A stretch of 64,000 nucleotides of DNA from Sphingomonas lutea (GTDB lineage: Bacteria; Pseudomonadota; Alphaproteobacteria; Sphingomonadales; Sphingomonadaceae): positions 1,508,501 through 1,572,500 of the forward strand of contig NZ_CP060718.1 of NCBI RefSeq assembly GCF_014396785.1, given 5' to 3'. Position numbers and translations under genes: made by a program. Position 1 is the stretch's first letter; the number at the start of each line of letters is the position of its first letter. This document shows positions 40,901 to 54,160 of the stretch, piece by piece. The notes beneath the pieces were generated by a model. The model saw only the letters and a program-made list of their open reading frames with translations. It was not told the origin of the DNA and made no database searches.

Positions 40901-41535
40901 GGGAGAAGATCCGCCAACGCCGCGACCAAACGCGCGGTGACTGCCTCAAGCGTTCCTGTCGCGTCGACCAACGTCACCCGCTCGGGCTCGGCCGCTGCAA
41001 TCTCGCGAAAGGCGCGGTCGACCGCCTGATGATAGTCCGCCGGCCGGCCGCCGATGCGATCAGGCCGGTCACGATCGCGTGCCGCGGCGCGCTCGTTTCC
41101 ATCGGGCAGCAGGAGGATCAAGGTCCGGTCGGGGAAGCCGTTGCCGATGGCGAAGGCGTTGATCGCCCGCACCTCGGCCACCCCCAGTCCGCCCGCTCCG
41201 CCCTGATAGGCGAGCGAGCTATCGACGAAGCGGTCGCACAGCACCCATGCGCCCGCCGCCAGCGCGGGTTCGATCGTCTTGACCACATGGTCGGCGCGCG
41301 CCGCCGCGAACAGCAACGCCTCGGCGCGCGCGTTCCAGCGATCCTCGGCGCCCTGCAGCAGAAGATCACGGATGCGCTCGGCCCCCTCGCTTCCGCCCGG
41401 TTCGCGAGTCTCCACGACCTCCAGGCCGCGCTCGCGCAAGGCTTGGGCGAGCGCGCGGACCTGGGTCGACTTCCCGACTCCCTCCCCGCCCTCGAGGCTG
41501 ATGAATTTGCCGCGCGGTGTCGCCTGCGCGGTCAC
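40897..41535 (-). CDS. tmk: Thymidylate kinase
   Basis: P-loop kinase making dTDP from dTMP, 212 residues. FISLEGGEGVGKSTQVRAL is the P-loop, TREPGGSEGAERIRDLLL the DR/E region, and CDRFVDSSLAYQGGAGGLG the LID region. GTG at 41535 is the likely start (MTAQATPRGKFISLEGG) and overlaps the dacA stop by 4 bases; an apparent longer open frame to 41883 runs antisense-like through dacA and is not real. Confidence 0.94.
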   Translation of the reverse strand: MTAQATPRGKFISLEGGEGVGKSTQVRALAQALRERGLEVVETREPGGSEGAERIRDLLLQGAEDRWNARAEALLFAAARADHVVKTIEPALAAGAWVLCDRFVDSSLAYQGGAGGLGVAEVRAINAFAIGNGFPDRTLILLLPDGNERAAARDRDRPDRIGGRPADYHQAVDRAFREIAAAEPERVTLVDATGTLEAVTARLVAALADLLP

Positions 41536-42713
41536 GCCATCCCGACAAGCTGCTTGAGGCCGAGCCAGACGCGGCCGAAGAAGCCTGCCTGGCCGACGTC
41601 GGCACCGGCGACCAGCGGCACCACCTGCTCGCCCGTGTCCCCGGTCATGATCACCAGCTGCGCAACCTCCTGGCCCTCCTTGATCGGCGCAGCGATCGGC
41701 CCCTGGTAACGCACCTTCATGCGCACCGGCTGATTGACCGTCAGCCCGGCAGGGATGGTCACCGCCAGGTCGCGCGGCGCCATCAAGGGGACTTCGGCGT
41801 CGCTGCCCAGCTGCACCTGCGCCGATCCGACCTGCTGGCCCGCCTTGAACAGCGGCTTCGCCTGCCAGGAATTGAAGCCCCATTCCATCAGCCGCGTCGA
41901 TTCCTGCACGCGCGCATTCCAGCTATCGAGCCCGGCGACGACCTCGATCAGGCGGCGGCCGTTCTGCTCGGCCGACCCGGTGAAGCCGTAGCCCGCCTCG
42001 TCGGTGTGACCGGTCTTGAGACCGTCCGCGCCCGGCACCTTGCCAAGGATCGGGTTGCGGTTGCCCTGGGTGATCGCCTGCCCCGATCCCAGGGTTTTGC
42101 CCCAGGTGAAGCTCGGCTTGTTGTAGAATTGCTTGTACAGCTTGGGATGGCGCTCGACCGTCGCCCGCGCCAGCGTCGCCAGGTCGCGCGCGGTGACATA
42201 GGTGCAGCCCTCGTCGGGCCAGCCGTTGCTGTTGCAGAAGCGACTGTTGGTCAGTCCAAGCTCCTTGGCCAGCGCATTCATCTGGTTGGCGAACGCCTGC
42301 TCGGTCCCCGCAATGCACTCCGCCAGCACCACCGAGGCGTCGTTGCCCGACAGGGTGACGATGCCGTGAAGCAGGTTTTCGACGCTGACCTGTTCATTGA
42401 CCGACAGGAACATCGTCGATCCCGCGGCCGGCCCATGCCATTTCTGCCACGTTTCCGGGCGCACGGTGCACATCTTGTTCAACGGCAGCTTGCCCTGGTC
42501 GATCAGCTCGAACGCGACCTCGGTGGTCATCATCTTGGCCATCGATGCCGGCGGCATGCGCATGTCGGCGTTCTTGGCATAGAGAACCGCGCCCGACGAC
42601 AAGTCGACCAGGATCGCGGTCTTGGCCGGCGTGTCGAACGGCGGCGCGGCGGCGGGTGCGGCGCTGGCGAACAGCAGGGAGGCGGCGGTTGCGAACAGGA
42701 TGGAGCGCGGCAT
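41532..42713 (-). CDS. D-alanyl-D-alanine carboxypeptidase (PBP5/6-like)
   Basis: A 393-residue periplasmic penicillin-binding protein trimming the terminal D-Ala of peptidoglycan pentapeptides. Signal peptide ends SAAPAAA (about residue 23). Active-site motifs: S57-x-x-K60 in PPASMAKMMT, SGN in TLSGNDASV, and KTG in DGLKTGHTDEAG. The C-terminal domain (from about 280) ends GFFGRVWLGLKQLVG, an amphipathic membrane-anchor helix as in DacA/DacC. Leads the tmk-holB-metG run. Confidence 0.93.
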   Translation of the reverse strand: MPRSILFATAASLLFASAAPAAAPPFDTPAKTAILVDLSSGAVLYAKNADMRMPPASMAKMMTTEVAFELIDQGKLPLNKMCTVRPETWQKWHGPAAGSTMFLSVNEQVSVENLLHGIVTLSGNDASVVLAECIAGTEQAFANQMNALAKELGLTNSRFCNSNGWPDEGCTYVTARDLATLARATVERHPKLYKQFYNKPSFTWGKTLGSGQAITQGNRNPILGKVPGADGLKTGHTDEAGYGFTGSAEQNGRRLIEVVAGLDSWNARVQESTRLMEWGFNSWQAKPLFKAGQQVGSAQVQLGSDAEVPLMAPRDLAVTIPAGLTVNQPVRMKVRYQGPIAAPIKEGQEVAQLVIMTGDTGEQVVPLVAGADVGQAGFFGRVWLGLKQLVGMA

Positions 42714-42755
42714 GGAGAAGATGGGTTTCCTCGATTCAGGCGTGAGGAGACCTGT

Positions 42756-43883
42756 CTATCGCCGGGCGATGGCGTTCGCCAGCAGTCCGACGCCCATCGC
42801 GTAGTAATTCGAGCAATTATAATCGAGGATCGCGCGGTAATTGCCGGTCAGGAGATAGCCCTGGGCATAAGCGCCCGGCGTTTCCATAAGCGCCACCAGC
42901 TCGGTATCAGGCAAAGTCCGTCCTGTCGGCATCACGCCCATCGAACGCCATTGCGCGACCGTCAGCCAGCGGCTGTGCCTGCGATAGACGTTGGGGCATC
43001 GCGGCGGGTTGAGGCGCGATTGCACCGCGGCGCGGTTGAGCGTGCCCGGAATCGCCACCGGCACGCCCCACGGCATGTCACGCTTCCACCCCGCGTTACG
43101 CAGGTAATTGGCGATCGAAGCGAAGGCGTCGTCTTCGTTGCGCCAGATGTCGGCATAACCGTCGGCATCGCCGTCGGCGCGCAGGCGCAGCGCGACGGTC
43201 GGCATGAACTGCGGATAGCCAGTCGCGCCGGCATAGCTGCCCTTTAGCTGCCAGCGCTGCACGCCCTGGTCCATCAGCTTCAACGCGGCGAGGAATTCGT
43301 CCTCGAACATCTGCCGCCGCCGCCCTTCATAGGCGAGGCTGGCAAGCGCATCGAGCAGGTCGAAGCTGCCGGTCACCGCGCCGTAACTCGTTTCCTTGCC
43401 GTAGATTGCGATGATCACTGCGGGATCGACGCCGTACATCGCCTGGATGCGCGACAGATTCGCCCAGTGCGACGAATAGCGCGCCTGTCCGCGGCTGATC
43501 AGCGAACTAGTGATGTGGCGGGTCAGATACGGCCCGAACGATGCCGGCGCATAGTCAGTCCGGGTCGACGTCGGCCGCTGCGCGCGGTCGAGGTCCATCG
43601 CGCGCTGGTTGAGCCGCAAATAGGGAACGACTGCCTGGATGGTGGCCTCGCGCACCCCCTGCTGCCGCGCGAGCGCCGCGAGCCGCACCTTGTAGCCGTC
43701 CCACGCACTCTGCGGCGGCGGTGCATAAGCGGGCTGTGGATAGACCGGCTGCGGATAGACCGGCTGCGGATAGACCGGGGTGAGCTGCGCGACCTGGACC
43801 GGCGCGGGGCCTGCCACGATGGCGGACGGGCGCGGTTGCGCCGAAGGTGTCGCAAGCGCCATCGCCGACGTCACCGCCAGCAT
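42756..43883 (-). CDS. Lytic murein transglycosylase, MltB-like
   Basis: About 375 residues. A signal-like N-terminus (LAVTSAMALATPSAQ) and a Pro/Tyr-rich linker of repeated VYPQP lead to an MltB/SLT_2 domain: VDPAVIIAIYGKETSYG carries the catalytic Glu; MFEDEFLAALKLMDQG and GSYAGATGYPQFMP follow the family. The C-terminus (SMGVMPTGRTLPD ... TGNYRAILDYNCSNYYAMGV) matches the peptidoglycan-binding extension of this group. I start at ATG 43883; in-frame codons up to 43967 are possible. Together with dacA it forms a small cell-wall neighbourhood. Confidence 0.88.
   Translation of the reverse strand: MLAVTSAMALATPSAQPRPSAIVAGPAPVQVAQLTPVYPQPVYPQPVYPQPAYAPPPQSAWDGYKVRLAALARQQGVREATIQAVVPYLRLNQRAMDLDRAQRPTSTRTDYAPASFGPYLTRHITSSLISRGQARYSSHWANLSRIQAMYGVDPAVIIAIYGKETSYGAVTGSFDLLDALASLAYEGRRRQMFEDEFLAALKLMDQGVQRWQLKGSYAGATGYPQFMPTVALRLRADGDADGYADIWRNEDDAFASIANYLRNAGWKRDMPWGVPVAIPGTLNRAAVQSRLNPPRCPNVYRRHSRWLTVAQWRSMGVMPTGRTLPDTELVALMETPGAYAQGYLLTGNYRAILDYNCSNYYAMGVGLLANAIARR
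43731..43775. repeat. Three 15-bp tandem repeats inside the MltB-like gene
   Basis: Units at 43731-43745, 43746-43760 and 43761-43775 follow CGGCTGCGGATAGAC on the + strand, the first with two changes. In the protein they encode the repeated VYPQP linker between signal peptide and catalytic domain. The count is likely to vary between strains. Confidence 0.8.
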
Positions 43884-44054
43884 TACTCCCCAATCACTCG
43901 CAACTCCACGCTCCTCATCACAACCGAGGCTAGTCCGGACAACCCACGAGACGCCAGCATGGTTCATCGCGCGCCTTGCACAGCCCGGCTTACCAAGCGA
44001 TATCGCGCGGCAGATGAAGGAGAGGTGGCCAGCCGTTCGGCCACCGTCCGCGCT

Positions 44055-44144
<90 letters not shown>

Positions 44145-44216: not shown

Positions 44217-44246
44217 CTACAAATGTAGCACTGTCTACAAATGTAG
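44217..44246 (+). promoter_or_regulatory. Two BlaI-type operators upstream of the blaI-like gene
   Basis: The palindrome CTACAAATGTAG occurs twice, at 44217-44228 and 44235-44246, 18 bases centre to centre, 16 bases before the blaI-like ATG. It contains the TACA/TGTA half-sites bound by BlaI/MecI-family repressors. This strongly implies autoregulation of the blaI-M56 operon. CAGGAG at 44251-44256 is the ribosome-binding site. No other copies of the palindrome were seen upstream of the later genes. Confidence 0.85.
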
Positions 44247-44261
44247 TGTCCAGGAGTCGCA

Positions 44262-44642
44262 ATGCTCAGCAAGCTTCCGCCCCGCGAACGTCAGATCGTC
44301 GACATCCTTTATGAGCGCGGCCCCGTAGCCGTGTCCGACATCTGCGAAGCGCTTCCCGACCAGCTGAGCGGATCCGCCGTCCGCGCCATGCTCAAGCGGC
44401 TCGAGGACAAGGGCTTCGTCCAGCGCACCGATTCGGACCGCGGCTTCCTCTACAGCCCGTCGGTGTCCGAGACTGCCGCGAAGAAGTCCGCCTTGAGCGA
44501 GATCGTCCGCGTGTTCTTCAACGGCTCGCCGGCCAGCGCCGCCTCTGCGCTGCTCGGCATGTCGGACCGCCTCGAAGGCAAGGACCTCGACGAGCTCGAG
44601 GCGATGATTGCCCGCGCTCGCGAGGTAAAGGGGGGCAAATGA
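44262..44642 (+). CDS. BlaI/MecI/CopY-family transcriptional regulator
   Basis: A 126-residue winged-helix repressor. The DNA-binding half has LPPRERQIVDILYERGPVAV and GSAVRAMLKRLEDKGFVQRT; the C-terminal half dimerises. In the beta-lactamase model, BlaR1 metalloprotease activity leads to cleavage of such repressors. The stop overlaps the next ATG by 4 bases, and two operators sit in front of it. No beta-lactamase or PBP2a gene is adjacent, so the regulon is unknown. Confidence 0.92.
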   Translation: MLSKLPPRERQIVDILYERGPVAVSDICEALPDQLSGSAVRAMLKRLEDKGFVQRTDSDRGFLYSPSVSETAAKKSALSEIVRVFFNGSPASAASALLGMSDRLEGKDLDELEAMIARAREVKGGK

Positions 44643-46513
44643 TCTCCATCCTGCTGTCGATTGCGCTCAAGTCGGTGATCGTCGCCGGCGGCACGCTCGG
44701 CCTCCTCGCCCTGCTCAAGAACCGCTCCGCGGCGGAGCGGTCGTGGGTCGCGCACGTCGGGCTCGTGGCGCTGTTGCTGCTCGCTTTCGCACCGCTGGTG
44801 CTCCCCAACCTCGCGGTTGAAACGCCGGCCTGGATGAGCCCGTCGGCGCCGGTCGCGAACGCACCGCAAGCCACGACGCCCGCCCCCGCCGTGCCCGATG
44901 CCGCGCCAACGTCTGCCGCCTCGCCTATGCCTGCGGACCCGGTCGATTCCGGCTGGACAATCAGCACCGCCGCCGCGGCCGGCGCGATCTACGCCCTTCC
45001 CGCCGCGATCCTGCTGATCATCACCTTCCTTGCGCTGGCGCGCTTGATCGCCCTGCGCGCCCGCGCCGACGTGCTGGTCGACGGCCACTGGCTGAGCGCC
45101 CTTGCCCGCGCCCAGCGCCGCATGGGCTTCAAGCATGGCACCGCCTTGCTCACCAGCGACGATTTGTCCTCGCCGATCAGCTGGGGGCTGATGCGCCCGG
45201 TGATCCTCCTGAATTCGCGCGCGGTCGAGGCCGCCGGCGAAGCCGAAGCGATCATCGCGCATGAGCTTGCGCACGTTGCTCGGCTCGACTGGGCCAAGCT
45301 GCTGCTGGCACGCGTCGCCACCGCGCTTTTCTGGTTCAATCCGCTGGTATGGATGCTCGCCCGCGAAGCGCATCAGCTGCGCGAAGAAGCGGCCGACGAT
45401 GCCGTCCTCGGCGCCGATATCCAGGATACCGATTATGCCCAGCTGCTGGTCGGCGTCGCCCGGCACGAATGTTCGGGCCTGCTGCTCGGCGCGCATGGCG
45501 TCGCTCCGTCCAAGAGCTCGCTTGCCCGCCGTGTCGCGCGCGTTCTCGACGGCCGCTCGGCGCGCGGTCCCGGCGCGCGCTCGTTCACGCTCGGCGTCTT
45601 GAGCGGTGCGATGCTCGTCGCCGCTCCGCTCGCCGCGCTGACGCTCGTGCCCGGCGGCAGGTCAGCGGTCCCGGCTGCGCCCGCGCTGGCGGTTGCTGCG
45701 AACGGTGAGCCGACCGCGCCTTATTACCCTGCCGCCGACCTTCCGACCGATCTGCCAAGCATCATCGCGGATGGCGTTTCGACCTCGGTCACGACCGCGC
45801 TCGCCGTGGCCGCCGTCGCGCATCCGCATGAGGCAGACGACCCCGCCGACGCCCTCGCCGATGCGCGCGAACGCCGCGAAGATGCACTCGACGCCGCGCA
45901 AGAGGCTCGGTCCGCGGCGCTCGAAGCCGCTGCCGAGGCGCGCGAGCAGGCGGCGCACGCCCGTGCCCAGGCCGCCGACGGCCGCCGCGCCGCACGGGCC
46001 GCGCGTGGCCAGGAAGCACTCATCGAGCAGGCGATCGAGCTGCGCGCGCTCGGGGTCACCTCCGAATATGTCAACGCCATGCGCGCCGCGGCGCCGCAAT
46101 TGCGCGGGCTCGACGCGTCCGCCTTTACCGGCCTGAAGGCCGTCGGCGTCACTCCCGATTATGCGCGCGAGATGGCGGCCGCACTGCCGCGCGTGACGCC
46201 CGGCGACCTGACCCAGTTGCGCGCCGTCGGCGTGACCGGCAGCTACGTGCGTGCGATGAACGAAGCGGGAATCCGCGCGGGCGTCGATGAATATGTCGAG
46301 ATGCGCGCTGTTGGCGTCAGCCCGTCCTATGTGAAGAAGCTGCGCGAGGCCGGCTACGTCTTCCGCGGCGATGTCGACAAACTTGTCGAGCTGTACGTGC
46401 TGGGGGTTTCGCCCAGCCAGTTGCGCGGCCTGCGCAATGTGCCGCCCAGGCCGCCCGCCCCGCCGACGCCCTTGCCCAACTCGAGGCGGCCCGCAGACCC
46501 CGACGACGGCTAA
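44639..46513 (+). CDS. M56 (BlaR1/MecR1-like) membrane metallopeptidase with C-terminal helical repeats
   Basis: A 624-residue membrane protein. Hydrophobic segments lie at about 8-25, 38-58, 113-140 and 314-336; the zinc-site HELAH starts at H208 (IIAHELAHVARLDW), with FWFNPLVWMLAREAHQLREE supplying the third ligand region. There is no C-terminal penicillin-binding sensor domain as in BlaR1. Instead an Ala/Arg-rich coiled coil (about 400-460) is followed by about five roughly 29-residue repeats (about 461-605) of the pattern ELRALGVTSEYVNAM / LKAVGVTPDYAREM. It shares the operon with the repressor, so it likely inactivates the repressor on an unknown envelope signal. Confidence 0.88.
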   Translation: MISILLSIALKSVIVAGGTLGLLALLKNRSAAERSWVAHVGLVALLLLAFAPLVLPNLAVETPAWMSPSAPVANAPQATTPAPAVPDAAPTSAASPMPADPVDSGWTISTAAAAGAIYALPAAILLIITFLALARLIALRARADVLVDGHWLSALARAQRRMGFKHGTALLTSDDLSSPISWGLMRPVILLNSRAVEAAGEAEAIIAHELAHVARLDWAKLLLARVATALFWFNPLVWMLAREAHQLREEAADDAVLGADIQDTDYAQLLVGVARHECSGLLLGAHGVAPSKSSLARRVARVLDGRSARGPGARSFTLGVLSGAMLVAAPLAALTLVPGGRSAVPAAPALAVAANGEPTAPYYPAADLPTDLPSIIADGVSTSVTTALAVAAVAHPHEADDPADALADARERREDALDAAQEARSAALEAAAEAREQAAHARAQAADGRRAARAARGQEALIEQAIELRALGVTSEYVNAMRAAAPQLRGLDASAFTGLKAVGVTPDYAREMAAALPRVTPGDLTQLRAVGVTGSYVRAMNEAGIRAGVDEYVEMRAVGVSPSYVKKLREAGYVFRGDVDKLVELYVLGVSPSQLRGLRNVPPRPPAPPTPLPNSRRPADPDDG

Positions 46514-46611
46514 CCACCGCCCCGCCCGACTACCTCTGACCAGTAATTTTTGACGCCTGGCCCGGGCGAACGGGCGGACCTTGCCTGAATTCTCGCCAAA
46601 GGAGACCCGCC

Positions 46612-47490
46612 GTGACCCGCTCCCTCGCCTCGCTCTGCGCGATCTTCCTCACCACCGTGTCCGTCGCCGCGGCCTGCACGGCCGCCACGTCCGACACGAT
46701 CGCTTTCACGATGGAGGCGGCGCGGGAACCGAACCGAATCCACGCCACCTTTCGTGACAGCGACCGCGACGGCAAGCGGGACCACGACCGCTGGTCTAGC
46801 ACATTTGCGCTATCGGAATTCGCCGGCCTCGATGTGACCGCGTTCCGCGGCTCTGGGCAGCGACCGGTCCGCTTCGCCATCACGCGCGAAGCCGGTCAGT
46901 TGGATTGCGCTGGCCAGGGCGGCAGCGCCCTCGCCCGGGGCACCTGCCGCTTTACGCCGAATGCCGGCTTCCTCCAGCTGCTTGCCAACCGCGGGATCGC
47001 GCGGCCCACGGAGGATGAAAAGTTCGCGCTGATGGCGGTCGATGTCCGCCGCGCCCTCATCGATGTCATCGCCAGCGCGGGCTACCCGACGCCGGGCGTC
47101 GACGACCTCATCGCCGCCACCGCGGTCGGGGTGACCAGCGATTACATCCGGCAATTGGCGGAGATCGGCTACCGTCCCGCGTCGATCGACGACCTGGTCC
47201 AGTTCCGCGCGCTCAACATCACGCCCGATTATGTCGGTGGCTTCGCGCGCATCGGCTATCGGAAAATGGCGCCCGATGAGCTGGTCCAGCTCAAGGCGCT
47301 GGGCGTCACGCCGGAGTATGTGACCGCCTTCAATCGCGCGGGCTTCCGCAACCTCTCGGTCGACCAGCTTGTCCAGCTCAAGGCGCTCGGGATCACGCCC
47401 GAATTCGTGGCGGCAGTCGCTCAGCGCCCGGGTGAGCTTCCGCCGGTCGAGCAGATGGTTGTGCTCCAATCGCTTGATCGCCGCCGCTGA
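46612..47490 (+). CDS. Exported protein with the same helical repeats as the M56 peptidase
   Basis: A 292-residue protein with an N-terminal export signal ending around VAAACTAA. The middle (about 35-120) has a beta-rich look and no recognisable family. From about 160 to the end are four repeats of roughly 30 residues, such as LVQLKALGVTPEYVTAF and LVQFRALNITPDYVGGF, closely matching the C-terminal repeats of the M56 peptidase just upstream. GTG 46612 with AAAGGAG 7 bases before is the start. Function unknown. Sharing a repeat with the neighbouring sensor protease suggests a partner, decoy or ligand-presenting protein; this is inference. Confidence 0.75.
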   Translation: MTRSLASLCAIFLTTVSVAAACTAATSDTIAFTMEAAREPNRIHATFRDSDRDGKRDHDRWSSTFALSEFAGLDVTAFRGSGQRPVRFAITREAGQLDCAGQGGSALARGTCRFTPNAGFLQLLANRGIARPTEDEKFALMAVDVRRALIDVIASAGYPTPGVDDLIAATAVGVTSDYIRQLAEIGYRPASIDDLVQFRALNITPDYVGGFARIGYRKMAPDELVQLKALGVTPEYVTAFNRAGFRNLSVDQLVQLKALGITPEFVAAVAQRPGELPPVEQMVVLQSLDRRR

Positions 47491-47596
47491 TCCGTCCGGT
47501 GACGAGCTTCGGTCGAACCGTCTGTCGATTGGTCGAAGGCCGTTGGCGCCACCACAAACGCTGCATCAGTGGCGACGAAAGACAAAAGGGGAATAT

Positions 47597-49741
47597 ATGC
47601 GCTCGATCCTGCTGCTGAGTTCGGCGGCCTGTCTCGCTCTCAACGCCAGCGAAGCCGTCCGGGCGCAAACCCCCGCGGGTGACGAGCCGCCCGTCAACAG
47701 CGGGCAGACGGCGCGCTCTACCAGCTACGACGCGGCCTTCTTCGCCCAATATGCGCCTCGCACCGCGCTCGACATCGCGCGGCGCGTCCCTGGGTTCACG
47801 CTCGACCTTGGCAACACCGACACGCGCGGCTTCGCCGGCGCGGCGGGCAATGTCGTCATCAACGGCGCCCGCCCCAGCTCCAAGTCGGAATCGCTCGAAA
47901 CGACTCTCCAGCGCATCCCCGCCAGCAGCGTCACGCGGGTCGAGGTTGGACCCGGCGACCTTTACGGCGCGGATTATGCCAGCAAGAGCCAGGTGCTGAA
48001 CATTGTCATGTCCGCGGTCGGCGGGATCGACGGCAACGTCACCGCGTCGCTGCGCCGCCTGTACACCGGTCGCGTCGATCCTAATGCGTCGGCATCGATG
48101 CTGATCCGCCGCGGCGCGTCGAGCATCAACTTGTCGGCCGGCTTCAACAATGTCGTCAACGCCGAGGAAGGGTCCGACACGCTGCGCGGCTTCGAAGACG
48201 GCGAGCTGCGCGAGTTCCGGCGCAAGTTCAACATCTACAAGGACTTCAATCCTTATATCGGCGCCAGCTGGGCGCTTGAACGGGCGCAGGACAATGCGAT
48301 CCGCGTCAACGCCCGCTATTCGCCCGGTCAGTTCGACCTTGAACAGCGCAATCGCGTCACCGCGACGGGCGAGCCGCCGCATGATGACTCGCTCATCCAG
48401 GATTACGACAATTCGGTGTTCGAGCTGGGCGGCGACATCACCCGCCCGCTCGGCGGCGGCGCGATCAAGCTGGTCGGGCTCGCCACGCGCCGCAAGCGCA
48501 ACAATTTTGACGCCTACATCGCCCGCGATGGTCTGCTCGAAGACGACCCCGCGGTCGTCGGCGGCTCGGAGCAGACGCAAAAAGCCAAGTTCGGCGAAAC
48601 CATTGGCCGCCTCACCTGGACCCGGCAGGATGTCGCCGGCTTTTCGGTCGAGCTCGGCGGCGAGGCCGTGCTCAACACGCTCGACAACAGCACCGCACTG
48701 ACCCTCATCGAAGAGGACGGCACCAAGACGCCGGTCGATCTCGCGGGCGACAACGTGCAGGTGAAGGAGAAGCGCGGGGAAATTTTCTTGAACGCAGGCC
48801 GCAACCTGAGACCCGCCCTGCGTGTCGACGGTGGCCTGCGCTTCGAATATTCCGATCTCAAGGTCAGCGGCGATGCGGAAGCGAAGCGCAAGCTCAAATT
48901 CTTCAAGCCCAGCCTGACCATCGACTGGAAGCCCGGTAACGGCTGGCACACGCAATTTTCCGTCAAGCGCACCGTCGCGCAGCTCAACTTCTACGACTTC
49001 GTCAGCGTCGCCGAACTGTCGACCGACCGGGTCAATGCCGGCAATGAAAACCTCGTGCCGCAGCGCGCATGGGAATGGCGCCTGACCGCCGATCGCCCGA
49101 TCCTCGGCGACGGGGTCATCAAGCTCGATCTTGGCTACGACCACATCAGCCTGCTGCAGGACCGAGTCTTGGTTCCGGGCGAAAAGCCTGGGCAGTTCTT
49201 CGACGCCCCGGGCAATATCGGCACCGGCAAGCTGATGTTCGCGACTTTGAGCGTCGACGCGCCGCTCGGCCAATTGTGGAAGGGGCTCCGGCTCAAGGCC
49301 GACGGCACGTTGCGTCGCACCCGCGTCGAAGATCCGATCAGCGGCGAGATGCGCAACTTCAGCGATTTCTTCCCCGATTGGCAGTGGAATGTCGAAATGC
49401 GCCGCGATTCCGGCCCCTGGTCCTACGGCTTCACCGTCAGCGACCGCGACCGCTTCACCTTCTTCCGCACTGAGGAATTCGACATCAATTACAACGGCGG
49501 GCCTTACGGGACCGCATTCGTCGAATACCGCCCGGGCCCGCGCACATCGGTGACGCTCGATGTCGACAACGCGCTCAACACGCCCGGCAATCGCCACCGG
49601 ATCCGGTTCAATCCGAACCGCGCCGCACCGCTCGACATCATCGACGAGTTGCGCGAGCGCAACCGCCATCTCAATGTCGGGCTGACGATCAAGCAGACCT
49701 TCGGCGGCGGCGCCGCCAAGGCATCCCCGTCCGGCCCCTAG
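47597..49741 (+). CDS. TonB-dependent receptor / outer-membrane beta-barrel protein
   Basis: A 714-residue outer-membrane protein. Signal peptide (about 1-23) is followed by a plug domain with ALDIARRVPGFTLDLG, GNVVINGARPSSKSESL and SSVTRVEVGPGDLYGADYAS, then a 22-strand-type barrel rich in aromatic/Gly strands. It ends NVGLTIKQTF with a short unusual extension (GGGAAKASPSGP) beyond the normal terminal phenylalanine. Ligand not predictable; no siderophore or sugar genes adjoin. Start ATG 47597 after AAAGGGGA. It follows the repeat protein by about 106 bases. Confidence 0.87.
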   Translation: MRSILLLSSAACLALNASEAVRAQTPAGDEPPVNSGQTARSTSYDAAFFAQYAPRTALDIARRVPGFTLDLGNTDTRGFAGAAGNVVINGARPSSKSESLETTLQRIPASSVTRVEVGPGDLYGADYASKSQVLNIVMSAVGGIDGNVTASLRRLYTGRVDPNASASMLIRRGASSINLSAGFNNVVNAEEGSDTLRGFEDGELREFRRKFNIYKDFNPYIGASWALERAQDNAIRVNARYSPGQFDLEQRNRVTATGEPPHDDSLIQDYDNSVFELGGDITRPLGGGAIKLVGLATRRKRNNFDAYIARDGLLEDDPAVVGGSEQTQKAKFGETIGRLTWTRQDVAGFSVELGGEAVLNTLDNSTALTLIEEDGTKTPVDLAGDNVQVKEKRGEIFLNAGRNLRPALRVDGGLRFEYSDLKVSGDAEAKRKLKFFKPSLTIDWKPGNGWHTQFSVKRTVAQLNFYDFVSVAELSTDRVNAGNENLVPQRAWEWRLTADRPILGDGVIKLDLGYDHISLLQDRVLVPGEKPGQFFDAPGNIGTGKLMFATLSVDAPLGQLWKGLRLKADGTLRRTRVEDPISGEMRNFSDFFPDWQWNVEMRRDSGPWSYGFTVSDRDRFTFFRTEEFDINYNGGPYGTAFVEYRPGPRTSVTLDVDNALNTPGNRHRIRFNPNRAAPLDIIDELRERNRHLNVGLTIKQTFGGGAAKASPSGP

Positions 49742-49828: not shown

Positions 49829-50442
49829 ATGCCGCTCCCTTCCTTCATGATGGTCGACGACTTCCTGTCCGATCCGCAACGGGCCCGGCGCAGTGCGCTG
49901 GCGCTCAACTACGATCGTGCGAAGAAGGACGGCAATTACCCGGGCGTGCTGTCGGACCGGCCTCTGCCGATCGCCGGGTTCGATCAAAGCGTGTCGCAGC
50001 TGATCGGCATGCCGGTGCGCGCGGCCTCCGGAACGGTGCACGGCCAATGCCGCATCACCTTCCGCAACGAAAAAGGCCTTAGCGGCGTGCACATCGACCC
50101 CGCATTCTATTCAGGCATCCTCTACCTCAGCAGGCCGGAGGATTGCCGGGGTGGGACCGACTTTTACCGCCATCGCCGCACCGGCCTCGATCGCGTGCCC
50201 GACGATCCGTTGGCCATCGCGCGCGCCGGCTACGGCGACATCAACGAGCTGATCGAGGGGTGGTCAATGCGGACACGCTCAAGCCTTCCAAGTGGGAGCG
50301 GACGTTCACGGCGCCGATGCGCTTCAACCGCCTGATCTTGTTCAGCCCGTGGATGTTCCACAACAGCGCCGCAGGGTTCGGCTCTACGGCCGAAGATGGG
50401 CGACTGGTCTATCTGATGTTCTTCGAGCGCGCCGACGCCTGA
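49829..50442 (+). CDS. DUF6445-like protein, 2OG-Fe(II)-oxygenase-like (one frameshift)
   Basis: About 204 residues after correction. MPLPSFMMVDDFLSDPQRAR opens the protein; GLSGVHIDPAFYSGILYLSR carries an HxD pair, and SPWMFHNSAAGFG with GRLVYLMFF gives the distal His and a candidate 2-oxoglutarate Arg, the classical double-stranded beta-helix layout. The frame breaks at the G run 50257-50260; adding one G gives IEGVVNADTLKPSKW. Such proteins often lie beside TonB receptors in sphingomonads and caulobacters, as here. Substrate unknown. Confidence 0.75.
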
Positions 50443-50533: not shown

Positions 50534-53500
50534 TTAGAAGCGCAGCTTCATTTCCACCGCGCCGCGCTGATCGCTCAGCGGGGCGTCGCCGGCAGTCGCC
50601 TGGCCGGTAAGGCCAAGGCTGAACTTGCCGCGGGTCATCTCGACCCCGCCCTTCATCTCCATCCAGCCCGAGCCGCCGCCGGTCAGCGGAAGCGCGAAGC
50701 TGTGCTCCGGCGCCGCCGCAAAGGCGACGTTAAGACCCGCATTGGCACCCGACAGCAAGCGGACATAATCGGCCTGCAGGCTCGGACGCACCGACCATTT
50801 GCCGATGCTCGTCGCCCCGTCGAGCTTGGCGCCGAAGCGGCTCTCGATCCGGTTGACCTTGAGCGTGTCGAGCGCCAGCGCCGTCTCGCCACCCGCCTCG
50901 CGGAACCCGCCCAGCGCATAATGGCTGAAGCCAAGCTGCGCACGCGGGTTGAGGTAAAGGCCGCTGCCGATCGCCTTGCGCACGCCGGCCTCGAGGTTCG
51001 CCATGTAGCGCGCCGAATGCGTCGCGCCCGACAAGCGGAACATCGAGGTCGTGTCGGTGGTCAGGCGGTTGCTGTCGCTCTGCGCCCGCTCGGCCGCGAC
51101 GACACCGCCGACATAGGCCGACTTGCCCACCGGCAGGCTGGCATAAGCCGCGGCCTGCGTCAGCTTGGTGCTTGCCTCGTCCTGGCCGATCATCGCCCGC
51201 GTCTCGGCATAGCCGATGGCGGTGCCGACCATCGCATCGCCGAACGGCGCTTCGATACCCGACGCGAAGTAGCGGCTGTGCTGGCCCGAACCGGCACGGT
51301 CGGCGTCGCCATAGGTCGACCCGATCGTGTCGCCGCCCATCGCCACAAAGCCCGACAAACCGCCCGGCGCCGCAATGTTCGCCGCCTGCCCTTCGGTGAG
51401 CCCGAGCTGCGCCGAGGCCGACAGACCCTCACGGCTCTGCTCGAGCGCCGAGGCGCCACCAACAAAGCTGATGCCCTGCGCACGCCCGGTACCCATCAGC
51501 GACAGACGGTCGCCGACATTGCCGAGCAGCTTCTGGCTCTGCCGATCCTGCATCGCCCGGACTTCGCCGACCATGTTCACCGGCGACAGCGCCGAGAAGG
51601 TCGCTGCCAGCTGACCGGCATTCATCCAGTCGACGTTGCCGTAGAGGTTGTAGAGCTTGTCGTAGAAACCGTTGCGAAGCTGATCGAGCGCCGATGCGAA
51701 GGCGATCTCGGTCGCGTTGCCGCCGTCCAGGATCTCGACGAGCGAGCCGGCGCGCATTTCGGCAACGATCTCGTTAGCGAGAGTGTCAGCGTCTGCACTC
51801 GTGTCGATATAGGTCAGCTCGGGACGCAAGACGCCCTGGAACGTATAGGCCTTCAGGAACGTACCCTGCACGTTACCGGTAGCGGTAGCGATCGTGTACT
51901 TCTGCCCGTGGCGCGGGGCCGGGGCGTCGGTTACCTTGTTAAAAACGACCGAAGCGCGCTCCGCGGGATCATCGTCCGGCGACGACAGCGACAGAACGCC
52001 TTCGACGACGAGCTTATCGGCACCGTTGCGAGCGACATCGACAAACAGCGACGAAGCCGACGCGAGGACCGTGTCGGCCTTGACGGTGAACGTCCCGACC
52101 TTGTCGCCGCCGCCCGGAGCGACCGCCCCGGCGGCAACCGTCAGGTAGCTCGGGTCGAACACACCCTTACCGCTGAGCAAGCCGCTCCACACGAATGCTT
52201 CGTCAGCAGTGAGCTTGCCGTCGATGTTGGTCCAGCCGCTGTCCTGAGTGAAGTCGGACCAAACCTTGAGATCGCCCGCCGTGGCGATGTTGAGGCGCGC
52301 AGAGCCATCGATCGTCAGCTTGTCGATTGTCGCTGCGCTCGACAAGGTCGTCTTGCCGGCTTCGCGTAGCGTAACGTCGTAATATTTGGCCTTGACGGTA
52401 TTGACCACAGCCGTCGGGCCGGAGCCCGAGACCAGCGTGTTGGACGGCTCGACGTTGTGGGGCACGAAATTGGTCGATCCGGGCCCGCCGGCAACGACCA
52501 GATGACCGCCGACACCGGTCGGGTTCGTGCCCGACTCAAAGTCTGTGCACTGCCCGTAACTGGCCTGAAAGTTCGCGAAATTATAGACGCCCGTCGTCGT
52601 CAAGGCGCAGACTGTGCCGAATTGCTCGACGGCCCCGTCAGCGCCGCCCTGATTATAATTGGGCAGGCTGTTCGCCAGCTGGCCATCCGGGCCGATGATG
52701 CCGTAATTCGGATCCATGTCCTGGATCCAGTGCATCTCATCTTCCCAATTGCCGTCCCCGGCCTTTGCCGAGACATACTTGTAGGGATTGTTCTGGACGA
52801 TCTCTTCCCAGAATTGGAACAACGGCGGGTAGAGGTTGAACTGGCCGTAAAAGGATCGCCCCTGAGTGTAAGAATAGCTTCCTGTGAGAACGCCAATGAC
52901 AACGGGCTTATGGAAACGGGTATCCGCAATCAGCGGTCCGCCCGAATCGCCGCCTGCAGTTGTGGCTTCATTCGGAAGCGCCTGGCCAGCAGGTCCATGA
53001 CCGCCTAGGCCACCGAAATCCGTGCATCGCACCAAGACGAAATAGCACGTCGGATCGAGATCGGCTCCGGTCGCGGGGCGACCTGGGCCGTCGAAGTCCA
53101 TCCAATAGGCCGCGTGATTGTTTGCGCCCGTCGGGGACTTGTCGGCCAAATTCCAGAAATTGTTTGCGCTGATCAAGGCATCGATCATGTTCTCGGCAGA
53201 GCGCCGGCGGTAATCGATGTTGTATCCAACCAGCGCGCCATATTGGCCCGAGCCGGTCCCGCCGTATCCGGTGATGGTCGCATGCGTCGGTCCATCGAGC
53301 GGCGAGAACAACATTGTCCACGTCGGAATGCCCTTGGCATGCCTATCCAGTGTAACGAGCGCGATATCCTTATTCGCGAATTCGCCGCCAGCATTCGGGT
53401 GGACCGAGGTATCGAACCAGACTTGATTGGCATTGAAGATGTTCATCGACGGAATCGACGATCGATCTGCACTGTCGCGCCACGTCTCGTAAGCGCCCTT

Positions 53501-54160
53501 AACGGTCGCGTCTGCGCCTGGGTAGCAAGGCACCTGCTGACCAGCGATCGGAGTTCCTGCAGCGCCCGCTCCACATTGGTTGCGATTGCTCGCGTTGAAG
53601 GCGTAGGCGAGCGGAATGGCGAGCGTGCCGGTCTTGGCGCCATATTCATGAGGCTGGCGGAAGACACGCAGCGCCGGATTCGTCGCGTGTGCCGTGCCAT
53701 AATAGCAGTGAGCGGCCGAGATGACGGTGCGCGGGTTGATCAATGTCCCCGAGCATAGGCCCAGTCCCCCACCGGGACTCAGCTGGAGCGACTGGCCGAC
53801 GCCGGTAATCCCGCTGCTCAGAAGCTGCGGCGAATTCGCAATATCGGAACCAAGGAGTGGCACGCCGGGAAGCGGGTTGCTGGTGATAGGCGGCTGCGGA
53901 TTGCCACGCCGCGGGTCACCGTAAACAGGAACCACCGGTGTGCCGGGGGTAATCGTGTGATTGCCGACGACATCCAGGTTCTCACCCCATTGCGAGAGAA
54001 CCTGCGCTGACTCGCTGAAGTCCAGCGTTGCCTCACTGGCAGCGTAAGTGTTTTCTACCCAGTTCGCCCCCGCGACCGCCGGGCTTGCGAATGCGAGCGC
54101 AGAAACAGACGTGGCAGCAAGAAGCGCGACGCGGGTCGCGGCACAACGGTTCACTTTCAC
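50534..54160 (-). CDS. Autotransporter serine protease, copy 1
   Basis: A 1208-residue type V secreted protein. Signal peptide (SALAFASPAVAG) is followed by a trypsin-like S1 protease domain: catalytic H151 (TVISAAHCYYG), D265 ([10 protein letters not shown]) and S406 ([11 protein letters not shown]). A beta-helical passenger with autotransporter-type strands (TVKADTVLASASSLFVDVA) leads to a C-terminal barrel of about 300 residues ending VEMKLRF, the terminal Phe that signals BAM insertion. GTG 54160 follows GGAGGGG. Paralogue of the next gene; the barrel half is nearly identical. Confidence 0.9.
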   Translation of the reverse strand: MKVNRCAATRVALLAATSVSALAFASPAVAGANWVENTYAASEATLDFSESAQVLSQWGENLDVVGNHTITPGTPVVPVYGDPRRGNPQPPITSNPLPGVPLLGSDIANSPQLLSSGITGVGQSLQLSPGGGLGLCSGTLINPRTVISAAHCYYGTAHATNPALRVFRQPHEYGAKTGTLAIPLAYAFNASNRNQCGAGAAGTPIAGQQVPCYPGADATVKGAYETWRDSADRSSIPSMNIFNANQVWFDTSVHPNAGGEFANKDIALVTLDRHAKGIPTWTMLFSPLDGPTHATITGYGGTGSGQYGALVGYNIDYRRRSAENMIDALISANNFWNLADKSPTGANNHAAYWMDFDGPGRPATGADLDPTCYFVLVRCTDFGGLGGHGPAGQALPNEATTAGGDSGGPLIADTRFHKPVVIGVLTGSYSYTQGRSFYGQFNLYPPLFQFWEEIVQNNPYKYVSAKAGDGNWEDEMHWIQDMDPNYGIIGPDGQLANSLPNYNQGGADGAVEQFGTVCALTTTGVYNFANFQASYGQCTDFESGTNPTGVGGHLVVAGGPGSTNFVPHNVEPSNTLVSGSGPTAVVNTVKAKYYDVTLREAGKTTLSSAATIDKLTIDGSARLNIATAGDLKVWSDFTQDSGWTNIDGKLTADEAFVWSGLLSGKGVFDPSYLTVAAGAVAPGGGDKVGTFTVKADTVLASASSLFVDVARNGADKLVVEGVLSLSSPDDDPAERASVVFNKVTDAPAPRHGQKYTIATATGNVQGTFLKAYTFQGVLRPELTYIDTSADADTLANEIVAEMRAGSLVEILDGGNATEIAFASALDQLRNGFYDKLYNLYGNVDWMNAGQLAATFSALSPVNMVGEVRAMQDRQSQKLLGNVGDRLSLMGTGRAQGISFVGGASALEQSREGLSASAQLGLTEGQAANIAAPGGLSGFVAMGGDTIGSTYGDADRAGSGQHSRYFASGIEAPFGDAMVGTAIGYAETRAMIGQDEASTKLTQAAAYASLPVGKSAYVGGVVAAERAQSDSNRLTTDTTSMFRLSGATHSARYMANLEAGVRKAIGSGLYLNPRAQLGFSHYALGGFREAGGETALALDTLKVNRIESRFGAKLDGATSIGKWSVRPSLQADYVRLLSGANAGLNVAFAAAPEHSFALPLTGGGSGWMEMKGGVEMTRGKFSLGLTGQATAGDAPLSDQRGAVEMKLRF
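51137..51640. repeat. 504-bp tract identical to 55002-55505
   Basis: Inside the autotransporter domain of copy 1. By row-by-row comparison the tract matches 55002-55505 of copy 2 at every base (offset 3865). Just outside (position 51136 against 55001, and 51641 against 55506) differences resume, and the flanking barrel sequence differs at many sites. Length may be extended or reduced by a base-exact alignment. Confidence 0.9.

Follow-up and report, generated by a model that had tools for sequence, protein, structure and literature searches.

What could a BlaI-type repressor and its membrane peptidase sense and control, when the peptidase carries an array of alpha-hairpin repeats in the place of a penicillin-binding sensor? 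The question is raised by a locus at 44217-49741 in a 64,000-nucleotide stretch of the Sphingomonas lutea genome (the window; C1:1508501-1572500 of the source genome G000, a single contig of 2.42 Mb). Two operator dyads are followed there by genes for a BlaI/MecI-family repressor, an M56 (BlaR1-type) metallopeptidase with repeats (repeat-M56), an exported protein with related repeats and a TonB-dependent receptor. At the level of sequence, the gene order blaI - repeat-M56 - secreted repeat protein - TonB receptor is conserved, and the genes, the dyads, their conservation and the homology of the repeats are established. An earlier note on this DNA had let the locus end with the exported protein at 47490, which is too early, since the conserved operon takes in the receptor gene. 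We give a probability of about one half to the reading that the operon encodes a beta-lactam-independent BlaI/M56 switch with an exchanged sensor, which monitors the cell envelope and controls an envelope regulon.

A repeat array in the place of the sensor

The repressor matches its Pfam family (Table 1), in line with the BlaI type given in the earlier note, and the 3' end of blaI overlaps the start of the M56 gene by 4 bp. In the M56 protein, the Pfam match to Peptidase_M56 spans residues 4-300, with the HExxH motif at residue 208. There is no Pfam match over cut-off beyond residue 300, and no Pfam match of the protein to a penicillin-binding, transpeptidase or beta-lactamase domain at E values up to 1. 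The NCBIfam model blaR1_generic aligns with residues 38-303 only (62.8 of 400 bits), and BlaR1 structures are matched within residues 162-299 at E values of 0.008-0.010. In the place of the penicillin-binding sensor, the AlphaFold2 model has a long, coiled-coil-like helix and five hairpin repeats; within the repeats, the ten-residue mean of the predicted local distance difference test (pLDDT) is mostly above 90. The earlier description of an M56 protein with a coiled coil and about five repeats instead of the usual sensor is thus borne out. Strong hydrophobic segments are found at residues 8-26, 37-55, 116-134 and 319-337. In BlaR1, the protease domain is cytosolic and the C-terminal sensor extracellular (PMC7593790). 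By analogy, the tail of the M56 protein after residue 337 should be periplasmic.

The exported repeat protein is modelled by AlphaFold2 with a mean pLDDT of 90.1 and a predicted template modelling score (pTM) of 0.80, as an N-terminal helix, a beta domain (residues 29-116) and a hairpin solenoid (residues 118-291) with a period of 29 residues. The repeats of both proteins were delimited by eye on the helices of the models. In the exported protein, the four copies of the earlier note correspond to four clear 29-residue units, to which one degenerate and one partial unit have to be added. C99 and C112 of the beta domain are nearly invariant across 51 sequences, which fits an oxidising compartment. 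By BLASTP, the two arrays are homologous (E value 3e-18, 35% identity over 134 columns), so that the same repeat is indeed present in both proteins, and no Pfam or NCBIfam model covers it. A second, longer stand-alone repeat protein of 354 residues with a signal-peptide-like start is encoded elsewhere in the source genome (C1:2031270-2032319; L081:7262-8326, reverse strand); no CTACANNTGTAG was found in the 9.5-kb stretch around it.

The operator dyad and the genes tagged by it

Dyads of the TACANNTGTA kind, which we take to be the consensus of BlaI operators, are present 5' of blaI according to sequence search and alignment. A search of the window for CTACAAATGTAG with at most two mismatches gave 4 strand-matches, all at the two operators, with 0.62 expected, and none of 100 shuffles reached 4. 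Both operators are exact copies, as the earlier note had it. In seven aligned blaI upstream regions the dyads are conserved and the flanks diverged, with small changes in G010 and G080; the second dyad, 16-18 bp away and sometimes imperfect, recurs in the aligned relatives.

The dyad can be used as a tag for further genes. The source genome has 9 exact CTACAWWTGTAG sites at 6 loci and none of the backward control pattern, where a first-order Markov model predicts 0.014 sites per genome and the empirical control rate is about 0.15. The sites lie 15 and 33 bp before blaI and, at four loci, 14-47 bp before genes for exported proteins (Table 1; dapE, the SDR gene, the coiled coil and the ABC parts of the exporter were named by eye). 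G012 and G042 have 4 exact sites each, with control counts of 0, and like the source genome they carry the repeat system.

Several of these links recur. A gene for a DUF2807 (Toastrack) protein has a dyad 8-28 bases 5' of the open frame in G000, G012, G529, G530 and G531 (of the form CTACATCTGTAG in the last), and the dyad is the conserved block in the alignment of the five spacers. Paired dyads stand beside dapE in G000, G529 and G531, where the divergent receptor is cut by a contig end in G529 and was not seen in G531. The coiled-coil protein is tagged in G000 and G012 (50% identity), and the small open reading frame (ORF) with pspC in G000 and G530, at 211 and 208 bp. The dyad between the exporter and the sigma-54 response regulator is present in G000 with one mismatch and in G529 as an exact copy. 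Tagged in one genome each are the genes for the PF00144 serine hydrolase (G000), an M13 peptidase (G012), an S41 peptidase (G042), a DUF5694 protein (G531) and an 88-residue ORF (G529).

Two additional systems were encountered. In G012, a second one (L126:3826-8936) starts with the dyad, followed by DUF2807, blaI and M56; it includes a divergent TonB receptor that shares 48% identity with that of the window, and hairpin repeats were not detected in the M56 protein. Sphingomonas hankyongi SE220, whose genome also contains the repeat operon, has a second, distant BlaI-M56-like pair (L114:1613-3210), with a dyad of its own (CTACAACTGTAG) that starts 5 bases before the repressor frame.

Possible detached sensor domains

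The tagged coiled-coil protein was used as the query in 398 genomes of the phylum, with matches in 13, the source genome included. All of the 8 best foreign matches (E value 1.6e-12 or better) are C-terminal parts of M56 proteins and start at residues 363-453. The 8 open frames have an HExxH motif at residues 202-213, and all match PF05569 above cut-off. Among the weaker matches, three were examined (L157-L159), and none had an M56 frame. The most telling observation of this analysis is therefore that two unrelated families occur both as the tail of an M56 protein and as a secreted protein under a BlaI dyad. The BlaR1 sensor domain resembles a class D beta-lactamase (PMC7593790), so that in that system, too, one fold can serve both sensor and output. 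The secreted proteins probably have the same ligand as the sensor, or else bind the sensor itself, and would thus close a feedback loop.

Co-occurrence and gene order in related genomes

Of 149 sampled family genomes, six have the secreted repeat protein (G000, G010, G012, G042, G080 and G081), and six have repeat-M56 (G000, G010, G012, G042, G080 and G101). The two genes are adjacent in five genomes (Fisher p 6e-8, for genes whose detection was not independent, because one query detected both). A random scatter of the repeats, which would have spoken against the earlier note, was not seen. The exceptions are G081, in which the search gave two stand-alone repeat proteins and no repeat-M56, and G101 and G727, with repeat-M56 and no secreted partner found. 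G012 has an additional weak repeat match in a 167-residue frame.

Ten repeat-M56 loci were read, namely the window and nine others checked by tblastn, with G529, G530, G531 and G727 added to the family sample. BlaI is encoded directly 5' of repeat-M56 in all ten. The secreted repeat gene adjoins in eight, with one ORF between the two genes in G529 (130 residues, no Pfam match, L121:4723-5115), and was not found in G727 and G101. The core idea of the earlier note, a BlaI/M56 pair with a new sensor and a related secreted repeat protein, is thus supported by the co-occurrence, with the three exceptional genomes named above, by the homologous arrays and by the constant presence of BlaI. It is strengthened by the tagged coiled-coil protein, a second secreted counterpart of an M56 C-terminal domain.

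Eight of the 10 loci (G000, G010, G042, G080, G529, G530, G531 and G727) continue with a TonB receptor gene, which belongs to one of two related types and whose frame is interrupted by a stop in G531 and cut by the end of the stretch in G727. None was found in G101, nor in G012:C58, a contig that stops shortly after the repeat gene. The receptors of G000, G529, G530 and G531 belong to the type of the window (52-69% identity). Those of G010, G042, G080 and G727 are only 28-29% identical to the receptor of the window and 44-49% identical to receptor 2 of the source genome, which is unlinked to the operon, yet retains paired dyads.

M56 proteins in general are common, with matches in 106 of the 149 genomes at an E value of 0.001 (104 over the Pfam cut-off). 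Among the 30 strongest M56 loci of the family, a full M56 frame was read in 16 and not in the other 14, and TACANNTGTA is present about one blaI length upstream of M56 in 10 of the 16. Exact CTACAWWTGTAG is absent from 133 of the 149 genomes, whatever their M56, which leaves no sign of a wide regulon of this dyad among the common M56-BlaI pairs.

What the system may sense

In the reading preferred here, a BlaI dimer on each dyad would repress its own operon and the regulon, by extension from BlaI and BlaR1. An envelope-derived ligand would bind the periplasmic hairpin array of the M56 protein. As in the BlaI/BlaR1 scheme, the signal would pass the fourth transmembrane segment and activate the cytoplasmic zinc protease, which would inactivate BlaI by cleavage. 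Repair or remodelling of the envelope might then be the task of the regulon products, which include outer-membrane barrels, Toastrack and PspC proteins and a serine hydrolase. The two kinds of secreted protein, with repeats or with a coiled coil, could act as detached copies of sensor domains and bind the same ligand, which is our first choice, or the sensor itself, and thus damp or tune the signal. An envelope function is suggested because the operator-tagged genes encode exported or membrane proteins, in agreement with the cell-envelope role that the earlier note had proposed. In the PSP systems of envelope stress, DUF2807 (Toastrack) and PspC have been reported to act as partners (PMC11237479).

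A number of observations weigh against this reading. Taken over all family genomes, the dyad barely exceeds its control, with 31 exact CTACAWWTGTAG sites in 16 genomes and 23 sites of the backward pattern in 17. For a wider pattern, CTACAWNTGTAG, the control has 2 matches on one strand of the source genome and at most 2 in any other genome that was searched with it. No dyad was found in G101 or G081, and G080 has no exact dyad, only imperfect ones before blaI. A sigma-70-type promoter match was not found at the operators. BlaI and M56 stand beside the dyad in 4 of 12 further dyad loci (L129-L140), and not in the other 8. Some tagged genes are found in a single genome only, and shared synteny makes the operator footprints less than independent. 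The system is rare, with a repeat protein of either kind in 7 of the 149 family genomes, and the two same-genus genomes sampled (G077 and G145) have neither gene. G727 retains M56 and the receptor without the secreted gene. A borderline fifth hydrophobic stretch (residues 375-393, IIADGVSTSVTTALAVAAV, score 1.63), which follows the fourth membrane segment and is largely conserved in close relatives, could place the repeats of the M56 protein in the cytoplasm. Finally, the known BlaI cleavage dipeptide is not visibly retained in the alignment.

The same data can be arranged differently. CpxP and RseB-type inhibitors hold their sensors off, and the secreted repeat protein may, though we think it unlikely, be such a direct periplasmic partner, whose array stacks on that of the M56 protein and keeps the protease off until misfolded or mislocalised envelope material titrates the partner away. 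The homologous arrays in adjacent genes, the position of the secreted gene next to repeat-M56 in all but one of the 6 family genomes that have it, and operators that suggest self-regulation are what would be expected, but the repeat-M56 proteins of G727 and G101 lack a detected partner, and the stand-alone repeat proteins of G081 lack a detected repeat-M56. A nutrient acquisition system, in which the TonB receptors import a ligand, the repeat proteins carry it and the M56 protein reads it, appears quite unlikely to us. A TonB receptor in 8 of 10 repeat-M56 operons and a second operator-tagged one in the source genome would fit such a substrate-specific uptake switch. The Toastrack protein, PspC, the PF00144 hydrolase and the HlyD-ABC exporter are, however, not obvious uptake genes, and the 714-residue receptor has Pfam matches to plug and barrel only, without an STN signalling domain, and no PDB relative by sequence at an E value of 0.01.

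The dyads outside the operon could also be sites of another BlaI-like repressor, or occur by chance. The source genome has two further, divergent BlaI-like genes at C1:2159742 and C1:2160301 (L019, C1:2159742-2160579), which adjoin a 1069-residue ORF, TonB receptor-like by eye. No TACANNTGTA was found in the 14-kb neighbourhood of these genes, and their products therefore probably read another site. With the count of 9 sites against a control of 0, and with several targets recurring in genomes that have the same blaI, this explanation is improbable. We regard it as very improbable that the operon is an ordinary beta-lactam BlaR1 system with a sensor diverged beyond recognition. BlaI, M56 and the operator are canonical, and the PF00144 protein carries the operator, but this protein reaches 72.2 bits with the general class C beta-lactamase model, whose cut-off is 415, and the C-terminus of the M56 protein is modelled as a helical repeat array, homologous to a protein without a Pfam enzyme match. 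By Pfam, none of the operon genes encodes a beta-lactamase or PBP2a, and no M56 gene other than that of the window was found in the source genome. The absence of a beta-lactamase claimed earlier thus holds for the operon, and elsewhere in the genome has to be qualified by the PF00144 hydrolase, which has two operators and falls far below the cut-offs of the class C models compared.

The preferred reading, an envelope-sensing BlaI/M56 switch, gains its interest from three points: the short operator exposes a candidate regulon by sequence, the outputs suggest a role in the envelope, and two of the secreted products resemble detached sensors. If it is true, BlaI/M56 would have to be counted, together with Cpx, Rcs, sigma-E and Psp, among the envelope-stress pathways of environmental bacteria, and penicillin induction would be one use of a more general design. 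It is possible, but more doubtful, that M56/BlaI forms a modular class of envelope sensors, with an interchangeable C-terminal sensor and regulons that secrete stand-alone sensor copies of the hairpin-repeat and coiled-coil types. These copies would have the ligand in common with the sensor and complete a feedback loop, and penicillin sensing by BlaR1 would be a special case of this design.

Features of the locus and neighbouring genes

Upstream of the operon, on the other strand, 41532-43967 encodes a D-Ala-D-Ala carboxypeptidase (PF00768, 41532-42713), at which the dyad is absent, and a lytic transglycosylase (SLT_2). Genes resembling this pair occupy the same position in G529, G530 and G531. 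Downstream, the reverse strand of 50534-54160 has a large, 1208-residue ORF that resembles, by eye, a trypsin-type autotransporter.

Table 1. Features in window coordinates, followed by dyad-tagged loci of the source genome in coordinates of contig C1.
Feature	Position	Strand	Basis or remark
tRNA-Ser	44055-44144		5' of operators
BlaI operator 1, CTACAAATGTAG within GCTACAAATGTAGC	44217-44228		exact copy; aligned in 7 loci
BlaI operator 2, CTACAAATGTAG	44235-44246		exact copy; 18 bp from operator 1
blaI, BlaI/MecI-family repressor, 126 residues	44262-44642	+	Pfam PF03965 (Penicillinase_R), 80.6 bits, cut-off 22.6
M56 (BlaR1-type) membrane metallopeptidase, 624 residues	44639-46513	+	Pfam PF05569, 108.8 bits, cut-off 31
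M56 long helix, coiled-coil-like, residues 402-470	45842-46048	+	AlphaFold2 model
M56 alpha-hairpin repeats, five, residues ~462-606	46022-46456	+	model, segmentation by eye, BLASTP
Exported repeat protein, 292 residues	46612-47490	+	AlphaFold2; signal-peptide-like start
TonB-dependent receptor / outer-membrane barrel, 714 residues	47597-49741	+	Pfam PF14905, PF00593, PF07715
DUF6445 protein	49829-50335		next gene after receptor
PF00144 serine hydrolase	503581, 503595		two dyads
TonB receptor (receptor 2) divergent from dapE	1739567, 1739584		two dyads
DUF2807 (Toastrack) protein	2199494		dyad
Secreted coiled-coil protein	1459971		dyad
Small membrane ORF and pspC behind SDR gene	241374		dyad, 211 bp upstream
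Between HlyD-ABC exporter and sigma-54 response regulator	2038677		one-mismatch site

Comparison with known systems

The weak resemblance of the exported-family profile to TALE repeats, and of both AlphaFold2 models to TALE/mTERF solenoids, at scores that are common among unrelated helical repeats, is taken here as a likeness of fold only. The repeat proteins differ from these alpha-hairpin solenoids by their exported context, and there is no sign of nucleic-acid binding. TonB-dependent cell-surface signalling of the FecA-FecR-ECF type depends on an STN domain of which the operon receptor has no detectable counterpart. The PSP/Lia network shares PspC and DUF2807 (Toastrack), domains tied to membrane stress, and the same dyad stands before both units in G000 and G530, where common control may be suspected, with the pspC dyad 0.2 kb away. 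BlaI or M56 are not mentioned in the main text of PMC11237479, and the Toastrack domain is predicted to be intracellular there, whereas the DUF2807 protein of the source genome has, by eye, an apparent signal peptide.

Roles of BlaI beyond a single beta-lactamase have been described in Mycobacterium and Staphylococcus (PMC8265638, PMC12565901, PMC4549145). These belong to other phyla, and a repeat sensor or a secreted sensor copy is not named in the accessible parts of these sources. The common Sphingomonadaceae M56-BlaI pairs have the same kind of peptidase; visual inspection of the final 110 residues of the 16 full-frame M56 proteins showed no hairpin repeats. A role for M56 without a penicillin sensor, or for a sphingomonad BlaI with TonB receptors, was not found described in the open-licence papers searched.

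With BlaI-BlaR1 and MecI-MecR1, the system shares the winged-helix repressor of the BlaI family, the HExxH membrane peptidase of the M56 family, the TACANNTGTA dyads and the overlapping two-gene unit. It differs in that hairpin repeats are present instead of a penicillin-binding sensor, which was not found, in that the tagged genes encode envelope proteins, and in that the operon extends to a TonB receptor and a secreted sensor-like protein. The proposed logic is similar to that of the bla system, with its sensor like a class D beta-lactamase and an output by which the ligand is removed. That BlaI can have a wide regulon is not in itself new. The present system has the layout of BlaI-BlaR1 and departs from it in the defining sensor.

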